From Lachnospiraceae bacterium (GTDB lineage: Bacteria; Bacillota; Clostridia; Lachnospirales; Lachnospiraceae): a stretch of 55,386 bases of DNA. The notes beneath the pieces were generated by a model, which was not told the origin of the DNA, did no database searches, and was given only the letters and a program-made list of their open reading frames with translations. Shown here piece after piece: positions 998-28,777 of the stretch. A program made the position numbers and the translations under genes. The stretch spans positions 1 through 55,386 of the forward strand of contig JAFQIE010000016.1 of the NCBI GenBank assembly GCA_017397645.1. Reading direction: 5' to 3'. How positions within the stretch are numbered: the first letter of the stretch is position 1; every line of letters begins with the position of its first letter.

Positions 998-3343
998 TTA
1001 TTTCCTATACCCACTACAAGTAAAATACACCACCTGATACTTCTGTGCAATTGTCCCAAGAAGTGCTTTTGCCATTTCCATTTTGGTGTCATCCAAATTG
1101 GTGAACGGGTCGTCCATAATAATCATAGGAGCTTCCTCTGTGTACATGGCATCTACTAAAGCGATACGTAGGCAAATATGGACTAAATCCTGATATCCTT
1201 GACTCAAATAGGCGAGGTCTCGCAACTGCCCCTGTTCCTGCACTTCCATCTTTACATTGGCGTCCAAACGAAAACGTTCACCCGCTTCTCCCACAATTTG
1301 TTGAAAGTATTCATCAAAGGAAGCCTTAATTGGTGCAGTATATTTGAGAGTAATAGCCTCCTTGGCCTGTTTCAGGAAGTCCGCCGCACGTTCTACATTT
1401 TGATACATGCTCAGTTCTTCAGCCTGCGTCTGTTTCAACTCCTCCAAAAGTTCCTTATCCGTCTCCCACTGGTCATATTTTTCATGCAGTTCATCCAAAC
1501 CGGATATATAGGTGTTTATTCTGTCTTTGATGGATTCCAACTCATCCGTCAGTTTGCGCGTACGCTCCGTCAATTCTCCTATGGTTGGAATTTTCTCTAT
1601 TCCTTGCTGTGCCAAAGACAGCATCTCCTGTTGCTGCTCAAACTGCGATAATTCCGCCTTTGCTTTGATTAAATCATCTTCCTTCTTTTTCAGATCAAAG
1701 TATTTCTTGCGGTTTTCACGTAGTGCAAACAAACGCTCCAAATATGAGTTTGCGGCATCCACAGTCCCCGTGTACAACGGCTGCTTTGCTACCTGATAAT
1801 AGGTAGTAAAAAACGCCTCAATCTCCTGTTCCAGTTTGAGTAATACTTCCTCTTTTTGGGTGTTTTCCGCAGCAACCGCCTTCTTGCATAGGCCATGGTA
1901 TTCCATCTCTTCTGCTGCAATAACATGCAATTGACTGACTACATTGTCTTCCTCATACTCTCTGCCACAGCCATACAAATAATCGCAAATTTGCTGTTCT
2001 ATCTCGGCAATTTCAGCCCGTATGTCTACCAAGGACCGTCTCATCTCAAGTAATGATGCTTCATCTGCAGAAATGCCGGACTTTTTAAACTTAAATACTA
2101 AGCCGAGAATAAACAGTATCACTCCCACTGCCATAACCACAAAGCCTATGGATGTGGCATACATAGCGGAAACACAGCCACACAGTAACAGTACCAGCCC
2201 CACCGCAAGCAGGATTCCCGCCTTGGAACGTTTCTTCTTTTCCTGTGCTATAGAAGCTTCCATTGCAGCCAAATGCGCCTCTTGAGCCGGCATAGAAAGT
2301 TGTTTCGCTTCCCTTTGACTCCAAAGAGCCACCATGTCTTGCGCTGTGGATTCACTGTTTTCAAAACAGGAAGCCAGATTGGACAATCTCTCCTGTTCTT
2401 CAGACGTCAACCTGGATGCATCTCGTTCTCTCTTTGTCGCCGTATATTCTTCTATCTGACGACGCATGTGTTCCAGTGCTTCATCCGTAGGGGCGTTTTG
2501 AGCGAACTGCCGCTTCAGCACTTCATAGTCAGCGTTTTCTTGTTCACTGAAGGTGTAGGTTTCTATCCTTCCACCAAGTTGGGCTTTCTTGTTGTCCCAC
2601 ACACTCAGTGTTTCCGCCAGATGAGACCATCTCTCCATTTCTTTCTTGGTCTCTTCGTACGCTTTTCTTTCATCCTCTAAAAGTTTTTGCTGGGCGGCGA
2701 TGCTCTCGGAAATACTCTCCCCATTTTTCACACGCCGTTCTATAGTGGCAATCTCGTCTTTTCTTTGATTGATAGAGCCCTTCTTGTATTTCGGCGTAAG
2801 CCGATTCATCAACGCTGTCAATCTATCCGATGCCGCCTCATAGCGATTCATGTCCCCGGTATCTTCCGTCAGATTGCCAATTTTAGCATTGATATCATCT
2901 GTGGTGCCGGAACCACAATCATTTTGCCCAATAAATAGGGTACGCAGAAAGGACTCCCTGTTAATTTTGAAAATTTCCTCCCCCAGATTAGCGGAATAGT
3001 CCCTAGAGACTAAGTTCGTCTTAGCATCCCTCAATTCAAATACATCTTCTGCCTCTTTATTGCCAAAACTCCTTGTGACAAGATATTCTTTCCCTTCCAC
3101 CTCGAACACAAGTTGTCCGCCGTAGGCTCCCCCTTGCCAGGGTTTGAAACGGGCTCTTTCCTTCTCTATATTGCTCCGTTTTCCTTCTCCCATGAAACCA
3201 TAAAACATCACACGCAGAAAGGCTGCAAAAGTACTCTTTCCCCAACCATTCTCCTGACAGAGTACATTCACTCCTTGTGTAAAATCCATAGATATATTTT
3301 GCAGTTTACCGAAGTTCTCTATATGACATGAAATCAATTTCAT
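998..3343 (-). CDS. yhaN: YhaN-like AAA ATPase (SbcC/RecN-type, membrane segment in the coil)
   Basis: This 781-residue protein starts MKLISCHIENFG and shows an N-terminal ATPase half with Walker A ENGWGKST around residue 36. Long charged coiled-coil arms follow, interrupted near the middle by two adjacent hydrophobic helices. A C-terminal half carries an ABC-type signature (YLSQGYQD) and Walker B (MIIMDDPFTNLDD). SbcC/Rad50-type ATPases use this split head and coil to act on DNA ends; the membrane hairpin is typical of YhaN. The start at 3343 is preferred because the family begins MKL. The gene lies 4 bp after yhaO, so the two are probably translated together and act as a nuclease/ATPase pair. 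No T-rich terminator follows, so its transcript may run into the antisense side of the toxin locus. Confidence 0.85.
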   Translation of the reverse strand: MKLISCHIENFGKLQNISMDFTQGVNVLCQENGWGKSTFAAFLRVMFYGFMGEGKRSNIEKERARFKPWQGGAYGGQLVFEVEGKEYLVTRSFGNKEAEDVFELRDAKTNLVSRDYSANLGEEIFKINRESFLRTLFIGQNDCGSGTTDDINAKIGNLTEDTGDMNRYEAASDRLTALMNRLTPKYKKGSINQRKDEIATIERRVKNGESISESIAAQQKLLEDERKAYEETKKEMERWSHLAETLSVWDNKKAQLGGRIETYTFSEQENADYEVLKRQFAQNAPTDEALEHMRRQIEEYTATKRERDASRLTSEEQERLSNLASCFENSESTAQDMVALWSQREAKQLSMPAQEAHLAAMEASIAQEKKKRSKAGILLAVGLVLLLCGCVSAMYATSIGFVVMAVGVILFILGLVFKFKKSGISADEASLLEMRRSLVDIRAEIAEIEQQICDYLYGCGREYEEDNVVSQLHVIAAEEMEYHGLCKKAVAAENTQKEEVLLKLEQEIEAFFTTYYQVAKQPLYTGTVDAANSYLERLFALRENRKKYFDLKKKEDDLIKAKAELSQFEQQQEMLSLAQQGIEKIPTIGELTERTRKLTDELESIKDRINTYISGLDELHEKYDQWETDKELLEELKQTQAEELSMYQNVERAADFLKQAKEAITLKYTAPIKASFDEYFQQIVGEAGERFRLDANVKMEVQEQGQLRDLAYLSQGYQDLVHICLRIALVDAMYTEEAPMIIMDDPFTNLDDTKMEMAKALLGTIAQKYQVVYFTCSGYRK

Positions 3344-3347
3344 AGTT

Positions 3348-4445
3348 TTAACATACCTCCTCTCCGGCAAGTGCCTGCAAGCCATAACGGATAATAGCTC
3401 CTTTTTCGTTCTCAGAAAGGTCATTCTGTGCCATCACCATTCGGACAAATTCTCCCTTTAGGGTTTTATCCAGCATATAATCTTCCTGTCTCACAGAAAG
3501 TGAAGTTTCATCATAGACCTTTGCAAAATAAAACCGGTCTGCAAGCATAGTCGCCAGATAGGTAATGTCCTTCTCACATTCCACATCCACACTTCCGGTC
3601 AGAACCACTTTTAACAGGCTATTCCTGTCATACTGTTTTTCATCAAGTATCTCTTGCATTCGAGCAGACATTTCGGCTGTGCTCCCAAGTCCAGTCACAT
3701 CCGCTTCCAGGGTATACAATTTACGGAATGCAAAAGGCACAAACGTATGGGTAAACTCTCCTGTTTCCTCATTAATATCCAGAAGTACAAAGCCGTGCTC
3801 TCCACATTCATCAAAGCCACGCCCCTCTAAACAACCGGGATAGCAATAGAACCCACGTGCATCCAAAGCTTCCTTTTGATAAGCATGCACATGCCCTAAC
3901 GCCAGATAATCGATTCCTTTGTTACGAAAACCCTTGAGGTTAATGTTCTCTGCTCTATGCTTCGAATCTCCATCCGCCTGCTGACCGTGTAGCATCACGA
4001 TATTGAATTTACTGACATCAGGGGTATACGTATGAGCCGCCGAACCGCTGTTTTCCGAATGCAACTCCATACCGGAAATCACGATTCTACCATCCGCCTC
4101 AGTATATGTAGTCCACTTGTCATCAAACATTTTTAAATTCTCAAGATGGTCCTGCTCTGTCAGGAAATTATCACTGTCATGGTTCCCTTTTAAATAATAG
4201 AAATTGATATCGGGATGACGCATAATTTGAGAAAGAACCGTATTTTTAACAGTTGCTGATATATTTTTCGTATCAAACATATCGCCTGCTATCAGAATAC
4301 CACGCACATGATTTTCCACCGCAAACTGAACCAGACGAACGAAACTATGCAGCACCTCTGCCTTGCGCTCCTTCGCCTTCTCTTTATCTAAATTAGCACT
4401 CAACTTGGAATCTAAATGTAAATCTGCACAATGGATGAATTTCAC
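3348..4445 (-). CDS. yhaO: YhaO-like metallophosphoesterase, DNA repair exonuclease family
   Basis: This 365-residue protein carries the calcineurin-like phosphoesterase motifs in order: CADLHLD near residue 7, GDMFD around 56, GNHDS near 85, LHGQ around 150 and LGHVH near 190. These residues bind two metal ions, usually manganese, in SbcD/Mre11-type nucleases. The C-terminal cap domain is less conserved. The start is GTG at 4445, with GGAGG six bases upstream. The partner ATPase gene yhaN follows directly, so the pair probably processes DNA ends; the precise substrate is not deducible. The 115-bp region upstream is shared with a divergent acetyltransferase gene. Confidence 0.85.
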   Translation of the reverse strand: MKFIHCADLHLDSKLSANLDKEKAKERKAEVLHSFVRLVQFAVENHVRGILIAGDMFDTKNISATVKNTVLSQIMRHPDINFYYLKGNHDSDNFLTEQDHLENLKMFDDKWTTYTEADGRIVISGMELHSENSGSAAHTYTPDVSKFNIVMLHGQQADGDSKHRAENINLKGFRNKGIDYLALGHVHAYQKEALDARGFYCYPGCLEGRGFDECGEHGFVLLDINEETGEFTHTFVPFAFRKLYTLEADVTGLGSTAEMSARMQEILDEKQYDRNSLLKVVLTGSVDVECEKDITYLATMLADRFYFAKVYDETSLSVRQEDYMLDKTLKGEFVRMVMAQNDLSENEKGAIIRYGLQALAGEEVC

Positions 4446-4520
4446 GGTGCACCTCCATACTTTTGATATATTAAGTATCGCAAATCTGCAAACATTTTAC
4501 AACTGTAAATTATTTTTACG

Positions 4521-4549
4521 TAGACGCAACTAACGCCTCATGTTATAAT
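4521..4549 (+). promoter_or_regulatory. Promoter of the GNAT gene
   Basis: An extended -10 element, TGT then TATAAT (4544-4549), lies 17 bp after a TAGACG -35 box (4521-4526). Confidence 0.6.
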
Positions 4550-4584
4550 CTCAAATAGATTTGATACAACAAGGAGAATATCTG

Positions 4585-5064
4585 ATGAACTACACGATAC
4601 GCCCTATAGAAAAAAAAGATGATTTGGCAGTTGAAAAAGTGATTCGCAGTTGCCTGATAGAATTTGGTGCCAATCACGAGGGAACCGCTTGGGCAGATCC
4701 TTATTTGAATCGCTTTTCAGAAATATATAACTCCCCCGGCAATCAGTACTGGGTAGTTGAGGACGAACAGGGCAATATTGTTGGTGGAGCAGGCATTGGA
4801 TATCACACAGATGATATTTGCGAGTTACAAAAAATGTACTGCCTCCCCGAGGTGCGAGGCACCGGCGCCTCCCATGAATTAATGCGCCTTTGTTTAGACT
4901 ATGCCAAAGATTACTATAAAACCTGTTTTCTCGAAACTATGGAAAATATGGTTGCAGCAAATAAATTCTATCTTAAGTCAGGCTTCCAAAGAATCGATAA
5001 ATCCCCTGCAAATACAGGGCATTACGGATGTGATGTGCCGTATATTTTACACCTACAGAAATAA
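4585..5064 (+). CDS. GNAT family N-acetyltransferase
   Basis: This 159-residue protein has the GNAT fold pattern. The central strand VVEDEQGNIVGGAGI is followed by LQKMYCLPEVRGTGASHELM, in which R-G-T-G-A is the acetyl-CoA pyrophosphate loop. The tail has YYKTCFLETM and NKFYLKSGF, the usual motif B. These enzymes move acetyl groups from acetyl-CoA to amines; the acceptor is unknown. The start is placed at ATG 4585 because AAGGAG sits eight bases upstream; a TTG 24 bp earlier overlaps that site. The gene has its own promoter and shares a bidirectional terminator with the convergent gene pair. Confidence 0.85.
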   Translation: MNYTIRPIEKKDDLAVEKVIRSCLIEFGANHEGTAWADPYLNRFSEIYNSPGNQYWVVEDEQGNIVGGAGIGYHTDDICELQKMYCLPEVRGTGASHELMRLCLDYAKDYYKTCFLETMENMVAANKFYLKSGFQRIDKSPANTGHYGCDVPYILHLQK

Positions 5065-5068
5065 AAAC

Positions 5069-5108
5069 AAAGCGCTCAAAATGTTATAAAACATCTTGAA
5101 CGCTTTTT
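5069..5108. terminator. Bidirectional terminator
   Basis: The imperfect stem AAAGCG...ATGTT / AACAT...CGCTTT is followed by T-runs on both strands. It sits between the convergent GNAT gene and the DUF2442-HTH gene. Confidence 0.75.
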
Positions 5109-5111
5109 ATT

Positions 5112-5570
5112 TTAATTTATCTCAATATTTAGTTTTAATCCCAATCCCTTTGCCAATCTGCTCAATGTGGATATTGATGGATTTGCAATTCCTCTCTCTA
5201 TTCTACTTATATCCGCTTGACAGATTCCGGTGATTTCGGAAAGCTGCACTTGTGTAATACCGCATTTACGTCGTGCTCTCACCAATGTTACGGCGACCAT
5301 ATCATTCGCGCTTATCTCAGTTTTTCCTACTTCGATACCTTTTTCCCATATATCTCTGGCATCCAAATCAATATCATCATTCCATATAATGCCTTGACCG
5401 CTTATATCCACCCTTACTTTTTCAAACAAACCTTTTGTCCTTTGTAATTCCTTAAACGCAGGGAAAATTGAAAAAAGCTGTTTCACATCATACTCCTTAA
5501 TTATGCCATTTTGAAATGTTGCAGACAGTATTAAGTTTTCTTTTGCTTTGACAGTCTTAATCGTATACAT
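5112..5570 (-). CDS. DUF2442 domain protein fused to an XRE-type helix-turn-helix
   Basis: This 152-residue protein has two parts. Residues 1-85 resemble DUF2442: a small beta fold with LSATFQNGIIKEYDVK, a phenylalanine-rich middle and GIIWNDDIDLDARDIW. Residues 95-150 form a Cro/C1-type helix-turn-helix, with GITQVQLSEITG and the recognition helix QADISRIERG. It follows the DUF4160 gene by 9 bp and clearly shares its promoter. DUF4160/DUF2442 pairs are recurrent in bacteria and often listed as putative toxin-antitoxin modules without much experiment. The DNA-binding domain suggests this partner autoregulates the operon. Confidence 0.8.
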   Translation of the reverse strand: MYTIKTVKAKENLILSATFQNGIIKEYDVKQLFSIFPAFKELQRTKGLFEKVRVDISGQGIIWNDDIDLDARDIWEKGIEVGKTEISANDMVAVTLVRARRKCGITQVQLSEITGICQADISRIERGIANPSISTLSRLAKGLGLKLNIEIN

Positions 5571-5579
5571 AATTCCCTC

Positions 5580-5834
5580 CTATTCAACTGACGGCAACAT
5601 AGCATAATCCTGTTTATCCCACATCTGTAGTAACCTATCTCTGTGATGTCTTATAAACTCTTCCACAAGTTGTTGCCCTTTCAATGGCATATCCCCCTGA
5701 TACATTTTACCATCTTCAATCCTAAACACACCGTAGTATTCCCCATATATTGCATGGACATGTGGGGGATTATGTTCTGTTTGTCTATAAAACATTTTTA
5801 CTGTGATACCATAAAATCTTCCTATGACAGGCAT
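5580..5834 (-). CDS. DUF4160 domain protein
   Basis: This 84-residue protein has the DUF4160 hallmarks: start MPVIGRFYGI, then HNPPHVHAIYGEY, in which P-P-H-V-H is the most conserved part, then FRIEDGKMYQGDMP. The function of the family is unknown. It is the first gene of a two-gene operon with the DUF2442-HTH gene 9 bp downstream and has a strong AAAGGAGG ribosome site. A role as the toxin of a TA pair is inference from family context. The PPHVH cluster hints at a metal site, but nothing here proves that. Confidence 0.8.
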   Translation of the reverse strand: MPVIGRFYGITVKMFYRQTEHNPPHVHAIYGEYYGVFRIEDGKMYQGDMPLKGQQLVEEFIRHHRDRLLQMWDKQDYAMLPSVE

Positions 5835-5848
5835 CTCTTTCCTCCTTT

Positions 5849-5877
5849 ATATTATATGTTATATCCTATATTGTCAA
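5849..5877 (-). promoter_or_regulatory. Promoter of the DUF4160/DUF2442 operon
   Basis: On the minus strand a consensus -35 TTGACA (5872-5877) and a -10 TAATAT (5849-5854) are 17 bp apart. The -10 lies almost on the ribosome site, so the leader is very short. Confidence 0.65.
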
Positions 5878-5980
5878 TGTAAAAAATGTATTTTTATACT
5901 TTTCAATCAACGGCATCACCTCCACTTTTTTCACATCTTTTGGATTTACTGTTAAGAGACCCTTAACATAGATAAATAGA

Positions 5981-6011
5981 AAGAACACGCAACAGAAAAT
6001 TGCGTGTTCTT
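5981..6011 (-). terminator. Terminator of the maltodextrin operon
   Basis: The 12-bp perfect stem AAGAACACGCAA (5981-5992) / TTGCGTGTTCTT (6000-6011) has a T-rich flank on the minus strand. It lies 45 bp after malQ. Confidence 0.75.
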
Positions 6012-6056
6012 ATAATAGCACTATGAAACCAATATGGTCAATCCCTACTTGGATTA

Positions 6057-7544
6057 TTATCTTTTATACAACCACATCTTCTCTCTGATGCGGTCCGCCA
6101 ATTCCCAACTAAATGCACCGGGCCATGCTCTCCAAGTCCAGTTACCCACGGTGGATGGCGTGTTCATACGGCCTTCACTTCCAAGTCCCAGAAGATCTTG
6201 AGCCTGCACAATAGCAGTATCTGCCACAGTTGCCCACAGAGCATCCATCATTGCCCAGTTCAACTCTTCTCCTTCTGCGATACGAAGATATCTTTTTGCA
6301 TAATAGGTATCTGAAGGATCCGCTTCACGGAACCATCCATTGATGGTATCGTTGTCATGGGTACCTGCATAGGCAATGCAGTTCTTTACAAAATTATGAG
6401 GCAAATACTCATTTCCGTTCGCATCCCTACTGTCAAACGCAAACTCCAGCACCTTCATTCCCGGGAATCCACTGTCCTTCAAAAGTTGCCGTACAGAATC
6501 TGTCAAATGGCCCAAGTCCTCCGCGATAATCGGCTGTCTGCCTATTCTGTCCTCAATGGCACGGAACAGTTTCATGCCGGGGCCTTCTTTCCAATGACCG
6601 TTCTTTGCGGTATCATCCCCATAGGGAATCGCATAGTATGCATCAAATGCCCGGAAATGATCTATTCTCAAAGTATCATAAACACGGCATAGATATTGAA
6701 TTCTTTCAATCCACCAAGCATAGCCTGTGGTCTCCATATAATCCCAATCATACAAAGGATTGCCCCACAGCTGACCATCGGCAGAAAACCCATCGGGCGG
6801 ACAGCCTGCCACTTCCTTGGGCACCTTGTTTTCGTCTAACTGGAATAATTCCGGGTGAGCCCATGCGTCCACGCTATCCAATGATACGTAAATGGGCAAA
6901 TCGCCAATCATCTGGATTCCTTTTTCATTCGCATAGGTTTTCAGATGATACCATTGACGGAAAAAGAAAAACTGTACTACCTTCCAGAACAGAATGCTGT
7001 CCTTGTTTTCTACTACCGCCTGTGCAAGAGCTTCTTCATCTCTATTGCGGAGCGTCTCACTCCACATACTCCAAGGAGCTCCCTGATGCACGTCCTTCAG
7101 TGCCATAAACAGCGCATAGTCCTCCAACCACGCCTTGTTTTCTTCACAAAATCTATCATACTCTTCCCATGGATTCTCACTGTGCAGTTCCAAGAATCTA
7201 TCGACTGCTTTATGCAAAATGGGGTATCTCTTAAAATACATTGCCCCATAGTTTACATGGGTAACATCCGATTCCCAATCCACGTGAATATAGTCTTCTT
7301 TATTGAGTACCCCCCAATCTGACAAAAAATCCAAATCTATAAAATATGGATTGCCAGCGTAGGTAGAATAAGACTGATACGGAGAATCCCCATAACTGGT
7401 AGGACAAATAGGCAGCAACTGCCAGTACTTTTGCCCTGCCGCATGCAGAAAATCCACAAACTCATATGCCGCTCTGCCCATGGTTCCGATACCATAAGGA
7501 GAAGGCAATGAGGAAATATGCATTAACACTCCACTTTTTCTCAA
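6057..7544 (-). CDS. malQ: 4-alpha-glucanotransferase (amylomaltase, GH77)
   Basis: MalQ transfers alpha-1,4-glucan segments between maltodextrins and frees glucose. The 495-residue protein starts RKSGVLMHISSLPSPYGIG, the family's usual N-terminus. It shows DLPIYVSLDSVDAWAHPELF, LRIDHFRAFD (catalytic nucleophile Asp in the second motif), IIAEDLG (acid/base Glu) and GTHDNDT. I place the start at TTG 7544: AAAGGAG lies 11 bp upstream, and a longer reading from ATG 7568 would put that site inside the gene. It is the last gene of a five-gene operon with a binding protein, two permeases and a LacI regulator, so its substrate is most likely imported malto-oligosaccharide. Confidence 0.93.
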   Translation of the reverse strand: MRKSGVLMHISSLPSPYGIGTMGRAAYEFVDFLHAAGQKYWQLLPICPTSYGDSPYQSYSTYAGNPYFIDLDFLSDWGVLNKEDYIHVDWESDVTHVNYGAMYFKRYPILHKAVDRFLELHSENPWEEYDRFCEENKAWLEDYALFMALKDVHQGAPWSMWSETLRNRDEEALAQAVVENKDSILFWKVVQFFFFRQWYHLKTYANEKGIQMIGDLPIYVSLDSVDAWAHPELFQLDENKVPKEVAGCPPDGFSADGQLWGNPLYDWDYMETTGYAWWIERIQYLCRVYDTLRIDHFRAFDAYYAIPYGDDTAKNGHWKEGPGMKLFRAIEDRIGRQPIIAEDLGHLTDSVRQLLKDSGFPGMKVLEFAFDSRDANGNEYLPHNFVKNCIAYAGTHDNDTINGWFREADPSDTYYAKRYLRIAEGEELNWAMMDALWATVADTAIVQAQDLLGLGSEGRMNTPSTVGNWTWRAWPGAFSWELADRIREKMWLYKR

Positions 7545-12055: not shown

Positions 12056-13999
12056 TTACTGTAATTGTTGCTTCCTAGTAATAAACTGCACTGCTGCTAC
12101 CGCACCAACCAAACCTACTCCCACAAGGTCAGTGACAATACCGGGGTAAATCAGTGCAAGACCACCTGCCAGGCAAACGATACGCTGCCATACCGGCATA
12201 TGGTGGAGAAGCCAGCCTTCTAATGATGCTGACACCGCAAAAATACCAACGATAGATGTGATACAAATCAATACCACCTCTCCCACCCCGGACGTATTAA
12301 TAAACAACATCGCCGGATTCAAGGCAAACACATAAGGTACAATGAATGCACCAATTGCCAATTTAGTGGCAGTGAATGCGGTCTTCATAGGATTTGCCTG
12401 GGCAATTGCCGCACCTGCGTATGCCGCCAGTGCTACCGGAGGCGTCAAATCCGCCACAATACCAAAATAGAACACGAAGAAATGTGCTGCTAACTGAGGC
12501 ACACCCATTCTCACCAAAATAGGTGCACAGGTTGCCGCCATAATACAGTAGTTTGCCGTGGTAGGTACACCCATACCAAGCACAATACAACACAGCATGG
12601 TTAAGAACAAAGCGATAATTACATGGTTTCCTGCCAATGTTACAATGCCGTTAATCATTATATTAGCTAAGCCCGTCATGGTCAGGGTACCGGCAATAAT
12701 TCCCGCCACACCACAGGCAGCCGCCACGGTAATCATGCCCTTTCCGCCTGCCGCCAAAGCTTCGAAAAGCCGCTTAGGGGTCATACGGGTTTCTTTGTTG
12801 AACATACTCACCACAATTGCCGCCACAATGGCCAAGGCAGCCGCATACTGAATGGACTTTTGACTGGTTCCAACAAGATAAATCAAAAGTGCCAAGGGAA
12901 TCAGCAGATACAACTGCTTCAACAACGGTTTCAAACGAGGCAATTCTTCTCTTGTCAAGCCGCGAAGCCCTTCTTTTTTGGCCTCTAAATGCACGGTAAT
13001 GAACACACCTGCGAAATACAACACTGCAGGCAAAATCGCGCGCACCACGATATTGCTATATGGCACACCAACATAATCCGCCATCAAAAATGCTGCCGCT
13101 CCCATAATAGGAGGCATAATCTGCCCACCTGTAGATGCTGCCGCTTCCGCCGCTGCTGCAAACTCCGGTTTGTATCCGGTCTTCTTCATCAAAGGAATGG
13201 TCACAGAACCGGAACCTACAGTATTCGCAACAGAGGAACCGGAAACAGTTCCCTCCAACGCACTGGCAACAACTGCCACCTTTGCAGGTCCACCGGAAAA
13301 ACCACCCACAATAGAATTGGAAATCTTGATAAAGAAATCTGCTATTCCGGTACGCTCCAGAAATGCACCAAAGATAATAAACACAACAATAAATTTAGAA
13401 CATACATTGATGGGCGTGGACAAAATACCTTCTTTTCCGTAGAACAGATAACGGACAGAATAATTCAATTTTCCCCAAAGGCTGGGGTTGCTCAGTCCCC
13501 ATCCCAATGCATATACCAAAAATGCGCTTGCCACGATAAGAATGGGAAGACCCACACTTCGGCGGCACACCTCCATCAAAGAAAGGATACCGACGATACC
13601 AATGACAATCTGATACCATTCGAAGATACTACCCTGCTGTATGATACTACGGGCATTGAATGCAAAGTACAAAAATGCTCCCGAGCCGCATACCATCAAA
13701 ATCACGTCATACCAGGGAATATAATTGATTCTTTGATGTCCCTTTCTTGCCGGGAACACCAAATAGCCCATAAACACGATAAAAGCCACAAATGTAGTCA
13801 GTCTAAGTTCCTCCAACCAAGTGGCAAATAAAGTTACGTAAATACAGAACAATGAAAATATGGCAAGCACCGCATTTACTGCGATCTGTGCTTTACCCTC
13901 CCAGATTCTCACATTGGATTCCTGATCATATTTTTTCATAACCGCATCTAAATCCATGGGTTCCTGTATTTGAGGTTGTTTTTTCTTAAAAAAAGCCAT
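12056..13999 (-). CDS. TRAP transporter fused permease (DctQ-DctM type)
   Basis: This 647-residue protein has about 16-18 hydrophobic segments. The first four match the small DctQ-like subunit; the rest is the large DctM-like channel, with GGFSGGPAKVAVVASALEGT and GMGVPTTANY as the most conserved stretches. TAXI-type TRAP systems use such fused permeases with a TAXI binding protein and are driven by an ion gradient. The start at ATG 13999 has AGGAG upstream. The gene follows the TAXI binding-protein gene, with a hairpin between them. The solute is unknown. Confidence 0.9.
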   Translation of the reverse strand: MAFFKKKQPQIQEPMDLDAVMKKYDQESNVRIWEGKAQIAVNAVLAIFSLFCIYVTLFATWLEELRLTTFVAFIVFMGYLVFPARKGHQRINYIPWYDVILMVCGSGAFLYFAFNARSIIQQGSIFEWYQIVIGIVGILSLMEVCRRSVGLPILIVASAFLVYALGWGLSNPSLWGKLNYSVRYLFYGKEGILSTPINVCSKFIVVFIIFGAFLERTGIADFFIKISNSIVGGFSGGPAKVAVVASALEGTVSGSSVANTVGSGSVTIPLMKKTGYKPEFAAAAEAAASTGGQIMPPIMGAAAFLMADYVGVPYSNIVVRAILPAVLYFAGVFITVHLEAKKEGLRGLTREELPRLKPLLKQLYLLIPLALLIYLVGTSQKSIQYAAALAIVAAIVVSMFNKETRMTPKRLFEALAAGGKGMITVAAACGVAGIIAGTLTMTGLANIMINGIVTLAGNHVIIALFLTMLCCIVLGMGVPTTANYCIMAATCAPILVRMGVPQLAAHFFVFYFGIVADLTPPVALAAYAGAAIAQANPMKTAFTATKLAIGAFIVPYVFALNPAMLFINTSGVGEVVLICITSIVGIFAVSASLEGWLLHHMPVWQRIVCLAGGLALIYPGIVTDLVGVGLVGAVAAVQFITRKQQLQ

Positions 14000-14023
14000 A
14001 TACTCACTCCTACACAAAAATAT

Positions 14024-14052
14024 GGCTGCGACGCATTTTTAACATCGCAGCC
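14024..14052 (-). terminator. Intercistronic hairpin between TAXI protein and TRAP permease
   Basis: The 8-bp perfect stem GGCTGCGA / TCGCAGCC is followed by ATATTTTTG on the minus strand. It probably stops a fraction of transcripts, giving more binding protein than permease. Confidence 0.6.
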
Positions 14053-14105
14053 TTTATTTGAAACTGCTTAAAACAAAGCCATTCTGCTTGTCGGATGGAC
14101 CGTGA

Positions 14106-15092
14106 TTATTCTGTCTCTACGGTAACACCTTTCTCTGCAAAATACTTTGCTGCACCTGCGTGGAAAGGTGCTGTCATACCGCTGGTAGCGTTTTCGATGC
14201 TAAGTTCTGCACCTTTAGCGTTCTCAGCAGTGATTCCTTCGATATTATCAAAAATAGCTGCTGTCAGGTTATAAACATCTTCTTCAGATGCGGAAGCAGA
14301 TACAATCAATGTTGCCTTAACGGTAACTGTGGTTACATCCTCTTCCTGACCTGCATAGGTACCTGCGGGTACATCATACAGGGTATAGAAAGGACAATCT
14401 GCCATCAACTTCTCTGCAACTTCACCATCAATGGGAACAAGGTATGCATCATTGGTGGTGCAAAGCTCGGTAATTGCGGGTGTAGGTGCACCTGCAACGA
14501 TGAATGCAGCATCAATCTTGCCGTCCTTTAAAGCATCTGCAGAATCAGCAAAGGACTGATACTGTGCCTGGATATCTTCTTCGGTGAGACCTGCTGCTGT
14601 CAACACATCGATTGCGTTGAAGTAAACACCGGAACCGGGAGCACCGATGGAAACAGATTTACCTGCCAAATCAGCTACACTCTTAATTTCAGGATCCATG
14701 GTAACAAGCTGCAATGCCTCTGCATACAAACCTGCTACAACACGGAATGCATCTACCTTGCCACCTTCCTCGAAGGAACGGGTACCTTCCCAAGCATAAG
14801 CCATAACGTCAGACTGAACAGTACCCAACTGATAATCGCCTGCCTGAATGCCCTGGATATTCGCCTTGGAACCATCCGTAGAAACAACTGTTACGTCGAT
14901 ACCTGCATGATTCTTGATGTACTGACCAAGAACGCCGCCGTATCCATAATAAGTACCGCTGGTACCGCCTGTACCCATAGTCAACTTTGTAGCGGGCTTA
15001 GCTGCGCTTTCGCCATCAGCTGCCGGAGCACCACAAGCTACCATGGACAGAGCCATTACTGCTACTAATACTACAGAAAGTAATTTCTTCAT
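14106..15092 (-). CDS. TAXI family TRAP transporter solute-binding lipoprotein
   Basis: This 328-residue protein begins MKKLLSVVLVAVMALSMVAC, a lipoprotein signal with the lipid-anchored Cys at residue 20. The mature part starts with the TAXI hallmark TMGTGGTSGTYYGYG, then shows GSKANIQGIQAGDYQLG and SIGAPGSGVYFNA. It captures an organic solute outside the cell and passes it to the fused permease encoded next. ATG 15092 has GGAGG eight bases upstream. The promoter at 15142-15170 abuts a long palindrome. The ligand is unknown; TAXI proteins elsewhere bind small acids such as glutamate. Confidence 0.9.
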   Translation of the reverse strand: MKKLLSVVLVAVMALSMVACGAPAADGESAAKPATKLTMGTGGTSGTYYGYGGVLGQYIKNHAGIDVTVVSTDGSKANIQGIQAGDYQLGTVQSDVMAYAWEGTRSFEEGGKVDAFRVVAGLYAEALQLVTMDPEIKSVADLAGKSVSIGAPGSGVYFNAIDVLTAAGLTEEDIQAQYQSFADSADALKDGKIDAAFIVAGAPTPAITELCTTNDAYLVPIDGEVAEKLMADCPFYTLYDVPAGTYAGQEEDVTTVTVKATLIVSASASEEDVYNLTAAIFDNIEGITAENAKGAELSIENATSGMTAPFHAGAAKYFAEKGVTVETE

Positions 15093-15226: not shown

Positions 15227-16060
15227 TTATTGAAGTAGTTGATTGAAATACTCCATTTTTTCCTTTGAAGGCACGCTAAATTCCTTCTTTTCCATATCCA
15301 AAGCAGAATACTTATGCTCTCCCATTGCGTGGTAGGGTAACAGTTCTATTTTCTCAGGTATTGTCTTTTGCTTTCCCAGAAACTCCTTCAGCGCGAGTAT
15401 CTCTTCTTCGGAATCATTGACTCCGCCAATCACCGGCATGCGAATCCACACCTTCGCTCCCTCATCCAATAATTTAGACAAATTTTCTAAAATCAGTTCG
15501 TTGCCAACTCCCACATATTCCTTATGGACCCGGGAATTCATCGACTTCACATCGTAAAGGAACAAATCCGTAAAGGAAAGCACTTGTTCAAATTTATCCC
15601 AGCTAACATGCCCTGCCGTGTCCACTGCCGTATGTAAACCTGCATCCTTGCAGGCCTTTAGGATTTCCACCAAAAAGGACGTCTGTAGCATACATTCCCC
15701 GCCGGAAAACGTCACACCACCACCGGAATGCTCATAAAAACTCTTATCCTTCAGCACTTCCTTCAGCACTTCTTCTACCGTGTAGGTCTTACCACAAATC
15801 TTTCTGGCATCTGCCATGCAATACATTTCACAGATTCCGCAGAGCGTACAGGACTCCAGATGATTGGGGCACTTTGCCTTACACATGCCGCAACCTTTGC
15901 ATTTATCCTTATAAAACATCATCTGCGGATTCGGATTTTGACTTTCCGGATTGTGGCACCAGGCACAACGCAAATTACAGCCCTTAAAAAAGACCGTCGT
16001 ACGGATGCCCGGTCCGTCCACAAATGAATTTCTCGTTATATCAAAAATGACTGCGTCCAT
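15227..16060 (-). CDS. Glycyl radical enzyme activating enzyme (radical SAM), no partner nearby
   Basis: This 277-residue protein is a pyruvate-formate-lyase-activase-type radical SAM enzyme. It starts with DGPGIRTTVFFKGCNLRCAWC, where C-x3-C-x2-C binds the SAM-cleaving 4Fe-4S cluster. A ferredoxin-like insert with eight Cys follows (CKGCGMCKAKCP and CTLCGICEMYC), then SGGGVTFSGGECM, which holds SAM. It installs a glycyl radical on a partner enzyme under anaerobic conditions. The family usually sits beside its glycyl radical enzyme, but none is seen between the TRAP and ABC operons. It has its own promoter and AGAGGAG ribosome site, so it is probably expressed alone. Confidence 0.9.
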   Translation of the reverse strand: MDAVIFDITRNSFVDGPGIRTTVFFKGCNLRCAWCHNPESQNPNPQMMFYKDKCKGCGMCKAKCPNHLESCTLCGICEMYCMADARKICGKTYTVEEVLKEVLKDKSFYEHSGGGVTFSGGECMLQTSFLVEILKACKDAGLHTAVDTAGHVSWDKFEQVLSFTDLFLYDVKSMNSRVHKEYVGVGNELILENLSKLLDEGAKVWIRMPVIGGVNDSEEEILALKEFLGKQKTIPEKIELLPYHAMGEHKYSALDMEKKEFSVPSKEKMEYFNQLLQ

Positions 16061-23940: not shown

Positions 23941-24240
23941 TCATGTTGTCAACAAATAGCTTGCTACACACAATAGCGTGCTTCCTATCATAAATCTATC
24001 TAATGAAATCTTCTCTCCATACTTGCCATATAGGGTGCGAGCAGTCCCCATCAACACCGCAAAAGTTAGCGGACCGGCCAAATCTCCCGCGGTTTTTGAT
24101 ATGCCCAGCCCTACTTCTGCAAAGGCTGACGCCCACTGGCTCACAGCCTGTTCTGATGCACCGGAACATACCATCATAATCACAAACATCCAAAACAACC
24201 TGTTTTTGCACAACTGCACACAGAAATTAATCGTAACCAA
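23941..24240 (-). pseudogene. Fragment of an MFS transporter gene
   Basis: About 100 residues match the middle of an MFS sugar permease: NRLFWMFVIMMVCSGASEQA, then SQWASAFAEVGLG, TKTAGDLAGP-like and FAVLMGTARTLYGKYGEK. Such transporters have about 400 residues and 12 helices, so both ends are missing. The upstream side abuts the stop codon of the glycosidase-like gene without an intact start. The downstream side stops after SYLLTT, where intact members continue into helix 9. It is most likely a deletion remnant of a sugar transporter that once belonged to the adjacent operon. Confidence 0.7.
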
Positions 24241-24245
24241 AAGCG

Positions 24246-26267
24246 TTATCCGGGCCAGCGGAATATGGTATGAGACGCATAATACAATGCCCAATCCTGG
24301 TCATTTGACCATGCATCATATCTTTTTCCATAATCCTTCTGCGGCTTCAAATACTTTTTCTCCGCACCAGGCACGGAAGAATATAATTCTACTTTATACG
24401 GGTACAAGTAATTATTGTATGCGCTTCCGTCCTCGTTATAGACGCATAAGTTTCCGGACAGATTCCGTTCTATGACAGAAGCATATTCCTGCGTATTTCT
24501 CGCTTTGTCATACCATGCGTATGCCCAGCCGGTGAGTGCGCTCCAGTACTGCGGGAACACATCTCCATAGCAAGCATACTTCCCAAACCAAAAATTATCC
24601 CAATACCTGACAGGAATACAGTTCATATGAAAATCCGGTTGATAGGCAAAAAAGGCTTGAGACATCTTATCATAGGCTTCTGCCTGATTCAAATATCTTT
24701 CATCCAAACTCAAAATGTATGCCTGTGCACAGTAACAAAGGATGCTGGCAGGAATTTCACTGCACCAGGAACACTCCATATGCCCTGACGGGGAGCTAAT
24801 ACCATGTGCGCCGTCAAGATTCTCTACATACTTCAAGAATTTAGCCAAAAACTCTTCCGCTAATCCGTTGATTTCTTCTTCCTTCAGTGCGCTATAAATC
24901 CTGACCGCTTCAATGCATTGCGCTGAATTGGTCATATTCGCAAGCTCAAGGAAATGCAAAATAATTCTCGCTGCATTCTCAATGCATTTTCTCTCTTTGG
25001 TCAGGCAATACCATTCCAGGTAATATGTGGATAACCATGGATAATTGAAAATTCTCACACTATCGCTCCGTCTCCCCACATCACCGTAAACTGTCGACGT
25101 CTCTTCATCATAGAGTTCCCGTTCGATAAATGCGCGGTGCTTTTTCAAAGAGTTCATCAGACTTTCATCATACTTCTCCTGTAACGCCTTACACACCACT
25201 ACGCCAAGGCCTACACGTTCGCGACCGGCATTGTGGTCATTATCTCCGGCTTCATAATAACAGGATTTCGTTTCGTTGTCATAAATCAAATATGCTCCGT
25301 CAATAGGGCTGCCTGCGCAATGATATTGCTGTTTTTCTGCAATAAAATGCGCCCTTTTCTCTAGTATTTCAGAAACAGGTTCACTTACCTTTACAAAAGC
25401 TCTCGTCTTCTTGCCATTCACTTTTGCAATGATTTCTTTTTCCCCTAAGGTGACGAAGCTGACACGGCATTTGATTGTACCATCCTCCTCGTATACGGGC
25501 AGTTCCTCGTCTCCAAGGCAAATGGATACAGTATCCACTTCTTCGGCACATTCCAATGTAAAGGTGACTTCTTCATTTTTCACAACGGTGTATTTATCCG
25601 CGGAGAATCGGATTTCACCCTCATTTTTCATAGGTGCAAATTCCGGTCTTTCATCGCTGAATTGATACAAAAAACGATAAGTTGCCGTTTCATTTATCGC
25701 CAATACCTGTTCTCTGGGCAAAAGAACGATTGCTCCCCTATAGTAGGAACCATTCATTGTCCTGGAAATATCATATTTGATGCTGTAATCGTCAATGGCT
25801 CCTTCCAGAGTATTCATCACAAGGTATGGTTTTTCGCCATTTGACCTTATAGAATATAACCACGCACCATCTCCGCCACACCAAACATGGTTGACACAGC
25901 TTTCGTTCATAACTTTAGACATATCTGAATAATTGCAGGCATATGGAACAGGTATGCCGATTTTTTCTTTCGTCAGAAAGAATTCTGCATGTCCGCAATT
26001 TGTTATATAATAGGTCTCAAAATACCCTTCATCTGTCATTTCCTTTTCAATTTTGATAGATAACATCATGGGTTTATGTACTGCCGCAACAGTGATTATA
26101 TTACCTTCCTTAGTAACACTCTCCGTTCGGAATCCTTCTATCAATCCCCAGTCTGAATTCTCCAAAACCCAATTCATCTTGTAGGCATCATTCAGTGCAT
26201 AAATTCCTGATGTTGCCCCTGTTCGCCGGTCTACCTCTATTAACATCTTAGAGTTTTTAAGTTCCAT
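24246..26267 (-). CDS. Glycosidase-like protein of unknown specificity
   Basis: This 673-residue cytoplasmic protein has no signal peptide. The first ~230 residues look like a beta-sandwich domain of the galactose-mutarotase type. A small Ig-like domain follows at ~235-300, then a helical region rich in Trp and Tyr that looks like an (alpha/alpha) toroid, with GDVGRRSDSVRIFNYPWLSTYY and SNDQDWALYYASH. That domain order occurs in glycoside hydrolases and polysaccharide lyases, but I cannot assign a family. The start at 26267 has GGAGGATTC upstream. It lies 37 bp after the activase gene and before the broken MFS gene. The C-terminus may be shortened by the same deletion. Confidence 0.6.
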   Translation of the reverse strand: MELKNSKMLIEVDRRTGATSGIYALNDAYKMNWVLENSDWGLIEGFRTESVTKEGNIITVAAVHKPMMLSIKIEKEMTDEGYFETYYITNCGHAEFFLTKEKIGIPVPYACNYSDMSKVMNESCVNHVWCGGDGAWLYSIRSNGEKPYLVMNTLEGAIDDYSIKYDISRTMNGSYYRGAIVLLPREQVLAINETATYRFLYQFSDERPEFAPMKNEGEIRFSADKYTVVKNEEVTFTLECAEEVDTVSICLGDEELPVYEEDGTIKCRVSFVTLGEKEIIAKVNGKKTRAFVKVSEPVSEILEKRAHFIAEKQQYHCAGSPIDGAYLIYDNETKSCYYEAGDNDHNAGRERVGLGVVVCKALQEKYDESLMNSLKKHRAFIERELYDEETSTVYGDVGRRSDSVRIFNYPWLSTYYLEWYCLTKERKCIENAARIILHFLELANMTNSAQCIEAVRIYSALKEEEINGLAEEFLAKFLKYVENLDGAHGISSPSGHMECSWCSEIPASILCYCAQAYILSLDERYLNQAEAYDKMSQAFFAYQPDFHMNCIPVRYWDNFWFGKYACYGDVFPQYWSALTGWAYAWYDKARNTQEYASVIERNLSGNLCVYNEDGSAYNNYLYPYKVELYSSVPGAEKKYLKPQKDYGKRYDAWSNDQDWALYYASHTIFRWPG

Positions 26268-26304: not shown

Positions 26305-27081
26305 TCATTGATAGTATTTAACACAACTACTTTTATACTTCAGGCAACGTGTTTTCATACCAAGCGCCTCATATTTTGCCCCGGCAAAATTGTGATAGGG
26401 TAAAACCTTCACCGCTTTTACATTCTTTAATGCCGACAAAAACTCCTCAATTCTTCCAATTTGGTTGTCGTTTATGTTTGGAACACATGGAATTCTGATT
26501 TCAATGTTTTTACCATACGAATCAATATATTTCAGATTTTCCAAGATTCGTTTGTTGGATTGACCTGTACATTTCACATGCACCTCTTCGTCCATGGCTT
26601 TTATATCATATAAAAAGATATCCGTATATGGTAAAACCTTGTCGATGGCCTCCACCGGTACGAAGCCACAGGTGTCCACCGCCGTGTGAATACCGAATTC
26701 CTTTAGTTTTTTTAATAATTCAGCGCAAAAATCAGCCTGGCAAAGGCACTCGCCGCCGGAAAGGGTCACTCCACCGCCACTGGTTTCATAGAAGTCCTTA
26801 TCCTCTAATAGTTTAGGCAATAGTTCTTCCACCGTCACTTCCCTGCCATATAACACTCTCGCTTCACCCAAACAATCTTCTGTGACGAACCCCTCCTTCT
26901 CACATTCGCCACATCCAATACACTTGTTTTTGTAAAATGCCATCTGCGGCTTGAAAGAAATACTTTCCGGATTATGGCACCATACACATTTCAAAGGACA
27001 TCCCTTAAAAAAAACCGTTGTTCTGATTCCGTCGCCGTCATGTACAGCAAACCTTTTGATGTCACTAATAATTCCTTTCAT
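26305..27081 (-). CDS. Glycyl radical enzyme activating enzyme, probably decaying
   Basis: This 258-residue radical SAM protein has HDGDGIRTTVFFKGCPLKCVWC with the C-x3-C-x2-C cluster motif, and SGGGVTLSGGECL. The accessory cluster insert is short, with only four Cys (C-x2-C-x2-C-x9-C). Its ATG lies 1 bp after the stop of a glycyl radical enzyme remnant, which was surely its partner. Near the end the reading GAKYEALGM continues as KTRCLKYK. One base to the side the DNA reads ENTLPEV, which fits activase tails, so a 1-bp loss at about 26355 is likely. The protein may be non-functional or lack a target. Confidence 0.8.
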   Translation of the reverse strand: MKGIISDIKRFAVHDGDGIRTTVFFKGCPLKCVWCHNPESISFKPQMAFYKNKCIGCGECEKEGFVTEDCLGEARVLYGREVTVEELLPKLLEDKDFYETSGGGVTLSGGECLCQADFCAELLKKLKEFGIHTAVDTCGFVPVEAIDKVLPYTDIFLYDIKAMDEEVHVKCTGQSNKRILENLKYIDSYGKNIEIRIPCVPNINDNQIGRIEEFLSALKNVKAVKVLPYHNFAGAKYEALGMKTRCLKYKSSCVKYYQ

Positions 27082-27082
27082 T

Positions 27083-27205
27083 TTACACTAGCCCTTCCGC
27101 CTGACGGATAAATCCGTCCTGTTCTTCTCTGTTGATATTGTTAAATAATACATTCCATCCACAAACTCTGATTTGTAAATCCTGATATGGGTGCTGGGCA
27201 ATTAA
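27083..27205 (-). pseudogene. C-terminal remnant of a glycyl radical enzyme
   Basis: The last 40 or so codons of a glycyl radical enzyme gene survive. They read HPYQDLQIRVCGWNVLFNN and then NREEQDGFIRQAEGLV before a TAA stop. R-V-C-G-W is the glycyl radical loop; the Gly carries the radical. Intact enzymes have about 750-850 residues with a catalytic Cys near the middle, and all of that is missing. Homology ends at about 27200, where the AraC remnant begins on the other strand. The activase gene starts 1 bp downstream. The subclass (dehydratase, lyase, decarboxylase) cannot be decided from so short a piece. Confidence 0.8.
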
Positions 27206-27722
27206 CTTTGATTTGCTGGAGAATATAAATGAAGCACCCTTTAACATAAGCTTTAGAAATCACGAATCCATTTTAAAAGATTTTAAGGATGCTGTTGCCG
27301 CTTGGGATGAAAAGCCTGAGTTTCACAATGCGTTGATTCGCAAATGTATTTACTCCATCATCCTAAAAATAAAAAAGGAGTATAATAAAACTTATACTCC
27401 AAATAAAAAAGAACGGTTGATTCAGCCGGCCATTGAAACCATCCTCTGTGATTATAAGAACTGTGATTTGTCTGTGAAAGATTTATCTGCGCTTTGCGGC
27501 ATCAGCGAGGCGTATTTTCGACGAATATTTATGGACAAGTTTTCTATTAGTCCCAAGGAATACATCATAAGTTTAAGAATCGAGCAGGCGAAACGTTTGC
27601 TTGAAAGCGGCCAGTTTTCTGTGACCGAAGCCGCTCAAATGTCTGGTTATAATGAGCCGTGCCATTTTTCTCGGGAATTCAAAAAAATTGTAGGAAAGTC
27701 ACCAAAGGAATATGCGAAATAA
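27195..27722 (+). pseudogene. 3' half of an AraC-family regulator gene
   Basis: The frame is open from 27186 and reads INFDLLENINEAPFNISF, like the end of the cupin-type sensor domain of AraC regulators. A linker and a complete double helix-turn-helix follow: LSVKDLSALCGISEAYFRRIF and VTEAAQMSGYNEPCHFSREF, ending KSPKEYAK. The normal N-terminal ~130 residues and start codon are absent. A TTG at 27213 could give a 169-residue protein, but no Shine-Dalgarno precedes it. In the intact locus it would have faced away from the glycyl radical enzyme gene, whose remnant it now touches. Confidence 0.75.
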
Positions 27723-27778: not shown

Positions 27779-27828
27779 TCCATAATATGGGTTCTTAATG
27801 GATGTCCATAATATGGGTTCTTAATGGA
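27779..27828. repeat. Two identical 24-bp direct repeats, 26-bp period
   Basis: A 24-bp unit occurs at 27779-27802 and again at 27805-27828 without a mismatch, with TG between. Each unit begins TCCAT and ends ATGGA, so it is itself a short inverted repeat. It lies between the AraC remnant and the nuclease-like gene; the rest of 27723-27994 is AT-rich with nothing else recognised. Confidence 0.85.
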
Positions 27829-27997: not shown

Positions 27998-28777
27998 ATT
28001 TTCATTCAAAAATTACATAAACAAAGTTTACTATTACGAGAAAAGATTGAAGAACAAAAGAAGAAACTATCAACTTATCCAAATGGGCATCTTGTAATCT
28101 CCCACACAGGTCCATACTCTAAATGGTATAAAAGCGACGGCAAATCATCTGTCTACATCCCCAAAAAAGAAAAGGAATTAGCCGTACAATTGGCAAACAA
28201 AAAATATGAAACCTGTGTACTCGAAGAGTATATCCAAGAACTTTCACAAATAGAAAACTTCTTATCAAAATATCATCCGCCCAAAAGTAAAACGGAAGCT
28301 CTATTAGAAGACGAAGCTTTTTTCAAACTTTTTTCCTTAAATTATAATATAACGGACGAAGATTTGAAGAATTGGACAGACGAAAAATATATCAAAAACC
28401 CTAAGTATCCCGACCAACTACAACACAAATGTCTCTCGGGAGAATATGTCCGTTCAAAATCAGAAGTAATTATTGCAAATATGCTATTTACAAATCATAT
28501 TCCGTATCGATATGAATGTCTTTTAACTCTAGGTAACACTTCTTTTTATCCCGATTTTACTATTCTCAACCCATCAACCCATCAAATCATCTACTGGGAG
28601 CATTTCGGAATGATGGATGTACCTACATATAGCGACAATGCTTTTAATAAACTAAAGCAATTCAGTTATTATGGCATCATTCCCGGTATCAACTTGATTA
28701 CCACCTATGAAACCAGACAAAATCCCATTGATTCCGAAAAAATAATGCAACTTGTTAACAATCATTTCAATATATAG
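27998..28777 (+). CDS. Uncharacterised protein, PD-(D/E)XK-nuclease-like motifs, non-standard start
   Basis: An intact frame of about 260 codons runs from just after a TGA at 27989 to TAG at 28777. No ATG, GTG or TTG occurs before 28190, yet the frame clearly codes upstream (QKLHKQSLLLREKIEEQKKK, then LVISHTGPYSKWYK). ATT codons at 27995 and 27998 follow AGGTG at a suitable distance, so I place the start at 27998 (ATT). The C-terminal half has RSKSEVIIANML (~150), YPDFTI (~185) and YWEHFG (~199), a Glu/Asp/Glu-His spacing like PD-(D/E)XK nucleases. I know similar proteins only as hypothetical ones in clostridia. Function is unproven. Confidence 0.65.
   Translation: MFIQKLHKQSLLLREKIEEQKKKLSTYPNGHLVISHTGPYSKWYKSDGKSSVYIPKKEKELAVQLANKKYETCVLEEYIQELSQIENFLSKYHPPKSKTEALLEDEAFFKLFSLNYNITDEDLKNWTDEKYIKNPKYPDQLQHKCLSGEYVRSKSEVIIANMLFTNHIPYRYECLLTLGNTSFYPDFTILNPSTHQIIYWEHFGMMDVPTYSDNAFNKLKQFSYYGIIPGINLITTYETRQNPIDSEKIMQLVNNHFNI

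Follow-up and report, generated by a model that had tools for sequence, protein, structure and literature searches.

Remnants of an AraC, glycyl radical enzyme and activase locus in a Lachnospiraceae bacterium, probably left by a single deletion

Accessory glycyl radical enzyme loci and their counterpart in the window

In accessory glycyl radical enzyme (GRE) loci of Clostridia, such as those in L008, L023 and L043, an AraC-type gene and the GRE gene are divergent, and the GRE and its activase gene overlap or lie adjacent to one another. The window, by which we mean the whole stretch of DNA analysed (55,386 nucleotides, from a Lachnospiraceae bacterium), holds the same three gene families in the same orientation, with GRE and activase likewise adjacent, and the GRE tails of these three loci are 85-88% identical to the tail found here. 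The three loci are complete, however, whereas the window lacks about 2.5 kb, the DNA that would lie between the remaining 3' portions of its AraC and GRE genes. Four full-length relatives match most of the length of the PFL2-3 subfamily model TIGR01774 (also HypD, NF043068), but at 283-315 bits, below the cut-off of 678, so that no substrate is assigned to the GRE. The GrcA/YfiD spare-part proteins, which are free-standing GRE C-termini, resemble the remnant in the window. The latter is shorter, and it scores far below their models: these have 78-126 positions, and the tail reaches 20.8 bits versus a GrcA3 cut-off of 158. Among the matches listed in literature searches on GREs with activating enzymes and gene loss, and on GRE genomic context, no title dealt with such a locus.

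Two truncated genes at one junction

On the minus strand, 27083-27187, lies the C-terminus of a GRE with its RVCGW radical loop, recognised by alignment to 38 relatives and by tblastn. It consists of 34 codons (27086-27187), which read YQDLQIRVCGWNVLFNNINREEQDGFIRQAEGLV, and a stop codon (27083-27085), and one base separates it from the activase gene (26305-27081, minus strand). The GREs of the 38 relatives, of which one query (L035) is a partial frame, score up to 70.5 bits by tblastn in this region, and the best of 20 codon-triplet shuffles of the window gave 30.8 bits. Against Pfam Gly_radical the tail stays at 12.5 bits, below the cut-off of 22.2, and such weak scores with general models are expected because only 34 codons are left. 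The GRE of L017 is 94% identical over these 34 residues. A 41-residue tail query found matches in only 2 of 99 genomes, the source genome and one at 42% identity, and no close relative with an intact locus was found.

On the plus strand, an AraC-family regulator remnant of 177 codons plus stop (27189-27722) retains its helix-turn-helix (PF12833, 1.2e-21) and is missing its N-terminal part. In alignments to full-length AraCs the homology starts at GCWAINF, at base 27189, and the mechanically called ORF start at 27213 is slightly off. The AraCs of the 38 relatives have 74-111 residues ahead of this column, counted from the first start codon of each frame and hence overestimated in some. The twelve best-scoring GRE-facing AraCs reach 126-183 bits against the remnant, with the AraC that faces the L008 GRE at the top. 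Among AraCs that were not assigned to the GRE of the query itself, the highest score is 107 bits (L011, 11243-12025), and this AraC too faces a GRE, another one of the L011 locus (12151-14283). In a search of 138 genus genomes, the highest score other than in the source genome was 89.9 bits, a value from another program that scored only part of the candidates in some genomes. Judged by these similarities, the remnant appears to belong with the GRE-facing AraCs. The closest AraC is 50% identical, and for this reason the deletion end points are not comparable base by base.

Both genes have thus lost their facing ends, and the remnants abut. In the alignment to the 38 relatives the GRE homology stops at the tyrosine (27185-27187) before QDLQIRVCGW, which places the junction at 27187-27189 with an uncertainty of about 12 bases, since the opening AraC codons spell the GRE-like AQHP in the reverse direction. 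The two truncations, together with this abutment, mean that one deletion is enough. The stretch absent from the window measures 2,389-3,161 bp in the 38 relatives (median 2,480), falls within 2,389-2,570 bp in 35 of them (L020, L051 and L054 lie above) and amounts to 2,459 bp in L008, the best AraC match. The preliminary description had seen about 40 GRE codons with RVCGW leading into the activase, the 3' half of an AraC gene, a junction near 27200 and a single deletion of about 3 kb. The order of tail and activase, and the truncation of AraC at the GRE remnant stand, and the single deletion is supported, while the tail is shortened to 34 codons, the AraC loss to about the first third, the junction shifts slightly, to about 27187/27189, and the size comes nearer to 2.5 kb.

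The junction DNA occurs once in the assembly, the rest of the genome containing only partial matches of 19 and 24 bases to it; a search of the remaining assembly revealed neither a second copy of the locus nor a full GRE of the same type. Recombination between repeats was considered as an origin of the junction and rejected, there being just short repeats near 27187.

The activase adjoining the junction is a radical SAM protein with its CxxxCxxC motif present (TIGR02494, 301 bits, cut-off 174), and after about residue 240 its frame differs from that of relatives. Its nearest relative is that of L004, at 81% identity, and the GRE tail of L004 is only 55% identical. For the first 240 residues, the nonsynonymous difference from five relatives is 0.12-0.19, compared with 0.07-0.21 among those five themselves. 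Saturation of synonymous sites, in the comparison with each of the five, leaves only the absence of an amino-acid excess usable for dating; as the activase, its end apart, has no such excess, the loss of the GRE looks recent. On this comparison the activase seems to have been under constraint until recently.

Two further features lie beyond the AraC gene. A 24-base sequence occurs twice at 27779-27828, the copies 26 bases apart and the first beginning 57 bases past the gene; its inner 22 bases have no other occurrence in the genome within 3 mismatches, and 11 of its bases resemble the junction (27185-27195) with one mismatch. At about 28000-28777 there is an A+T-rich ORF (33% GC) for which neither Pfam nor NCBIfam gave a match above the cut-off, and whose frame, by eye, opens upstream of the listed TTG, perhaps at an ATT that follows a ribosome-binding-site-like sequence.

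The intact arrangement and further scars

A search of genome contigs with the activase gave 130 stretches with a pattern match, 114 of them encoding a relative, and the best 80 of the 114 were kept. We looked for a GRE on the activase strand ending at most 3.5 kb upstream and for an opposite-strand AraC-type gene at most 1.2 kb from the GRE start, and this order, AraC(-)/GRE(+)/activase(+), was present in 38 of the 80. Three of the 38 are loose members: L054, where AraC is cut by the contig end and gives no match to the window AraC (gap 581 bp); L051 (gap 893 bp); and L035, whose GRE is in two frames, of which the second alone was taken, giving a gap of 678 bp. The remaining 42 were without the arrangement as searched: in 13 of them the 3.5 kb upstream showed no GRE, and in 29 a GRE was present but no divergent AraC was found. 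Several of the 29 sit at a contig edge (L005, L009, L018, L032, L055, L056 and L082), and in 7 of the 13 the GRE comes after the activase (L060, L063, L065, L066, L068, L069 and L074). That the intact AraC and GRE genes are divergent had been proposed beforehand, and the proposal survived the comparison with relatives that was meant to refute it.

At about 8600-10810 of L007, only the C-terminal part of a GRE remains, with a complete activase and another ORF between the two, so that GRE loss is not unique to the source genome. Matches to PF02901 occur in 128 of the 138 genus genomes, 1-6 in each. We infer that the AraC-GRE-activase locus of the window is an accessory unit of sporadic occurrence, which transfer may have brought in.

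Downstream of the activase, on the minus strand, lie a 673-residue ORF (24246-26267) and a probable MFS transporter fragment (23941-24294). The former owes the name glycosidase-like to the preliminary description, has no family match and is connected with the GRE locus solely by where it lies; the latter scores 20.1 bits (cut-off 33.4) over positions 198-283 of the 347-position profile, and the MFS gene is probably damaged. It had been suggested that relatives would show the order AraC, GRE, activase, glycosidase-like and MFS. The first three are borne out by the 38 loci, the last two are not: neither gene was found beside an activase among the listed matches at the 80 loci (at most nine per locus, many loci being short), and the MFS fragment had no match at E 1 to the ORFs of these loci. 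Conversely, no activase match turned up at five loci, 2.0-4.0 kb each, that carry relatives of the glycosidase-like ORF from the same taxonomic order. A longer ancestral operon was rejected, given that neither gene was seen beside the activases of relatives in these listings.

Elsewhere in the source genome there is a second scar, a GRE tail and a complete activase without a GRE, all three new here. The scar is on contig C31 (L124, about 2985-4646), where a frame-changed AraC gene faces an activase that is without about its first 66 residues, starting near the position of residue 67 in the L022 relative, to which it is 68% identical. No GRE was found in the roughly 215 bp between the two genes, and the counterpart interval of L022 holds a 733-residue GRE with an AraC gene facing it. 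The L022 AraC is not among the listed best matches of the C31 AraC; all 8 matches listed for the first piece of the latter, and 6 of the 8 listed for the second, are AraCs divergent from GREs. The tail, a GRE C-terminal stump with RVTGYS in a 45-codon open frame, lies on the minus strand of contig C23 (L122, about 4291-4428), with no GRE body or activase found near it. The apparently complete second activase is in the window itself (15227-16060, minus strand); it is 65% identical to the activase of the second GRE pair in L008, no GRE was found beside it, and its neighbour presumably is a TRAP-type transporter.

The only PF02901 match of the source genome (G000) is on contig C27. At 3534-6919 of this contig (L123), there is a split pyruvate formate-lyase (PFL), with a 679-residue core corresponding to TIGR01255 positions 2-664, then a separate 80-residue protein corresponding to positions 664-744 (GrcA3 162.9 bits, cut-off 158), and then an activase. 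Split PFLs also occur in other genomes of the genus, e.g., on contig C11 of G057 and C22 of G367, with PFL frames of 688-689 residues and a radical-domain ORF of 87-104 residues about 650 bp further on. No paper naming grcA3 was found in the literature searched.

Origin and meaning of the remnants

We favour, with a probability of roughly 0.84, the explanation that one deletion in an AraC-GRE-activase locus gave rise to the remnants. An ancestor would have carried the common accessory locus, with an AraC gene facing a GRE of about 740 residues and the activase just downstream. A single event of about 2.5 kb would have taken out the GRE gene up to a point close to its 3' end, the control region that the two genes shared and the front of the AraC gene, joining the ends without a long repeat. 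Of the GRE it would have spared the 34-codon tail alone, and it would have deprived the activase of its enzyme and the AraC gene of its start. The activase would presumably have lost its promoter along with the control region, and what is left may best be regarded as a decaying locus with no expected function. The observation behind the preliminary description is confirmed, and its interpretation is largely supported.

An assembly artefact joining the two ends of an intact locus, with the GRE really present, is unlikely. The assembly is a draft in 46 contigs at 74% completeness, which leaves some room for such an error, but no GRE body of the same type turned up elsewhere in it and the junction DNA recurs only as the short partial matches given above. 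Moreover, the adjoining end of the activase is damaged independently, and the damage to another GRE locus, on C31, takes a different form. Further damage nearby, as well as the 24-base repeat past the AraC gene with its 11-base likeness to the junction, could speak for several steps, for example insertion of a mobile element with imprecise loss or two smaller deletions; as the remnants meet to within about 12 bases, which leaves no space for the remnant of an element, and a single event suffices, we regard this course as very improbable. It is also conceivable in principle that the remnants function, with a small, independent glycyl radical protein made from the tail and a short activator from the AraC remnant: the radical motif is retained in the tail, which weakly matches GrcA3, and neither remnant contains a stop codon. 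With 34 homologous tail codons set against the 78 positions of the GrcA3 model, and no matching enzyme core found in the assembly, the chance of this is close to nil, and a functional tail was rejected on its 20.8 bits versus the cut-off of 158.

A broader reading is that the lineage is losing the whole class of accessory GREs in repeated, separate events, with activases outliving their enzymes and orphans perhaps being kept to act in trans, in a genus where a small separate protein often supplies the radical domain of PFL. We hold this to be improbable.

The probable single deletion is a case of ordinary gene decay, clearly resolved. It illustrates neatly the death of an accessory anaerobic enzyme locus, in which two divergent genes are cut at once and the activase outlasts the enzyme. 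An annotated GRE activase or AraC regulator is consequently no proof that a GRE is present.
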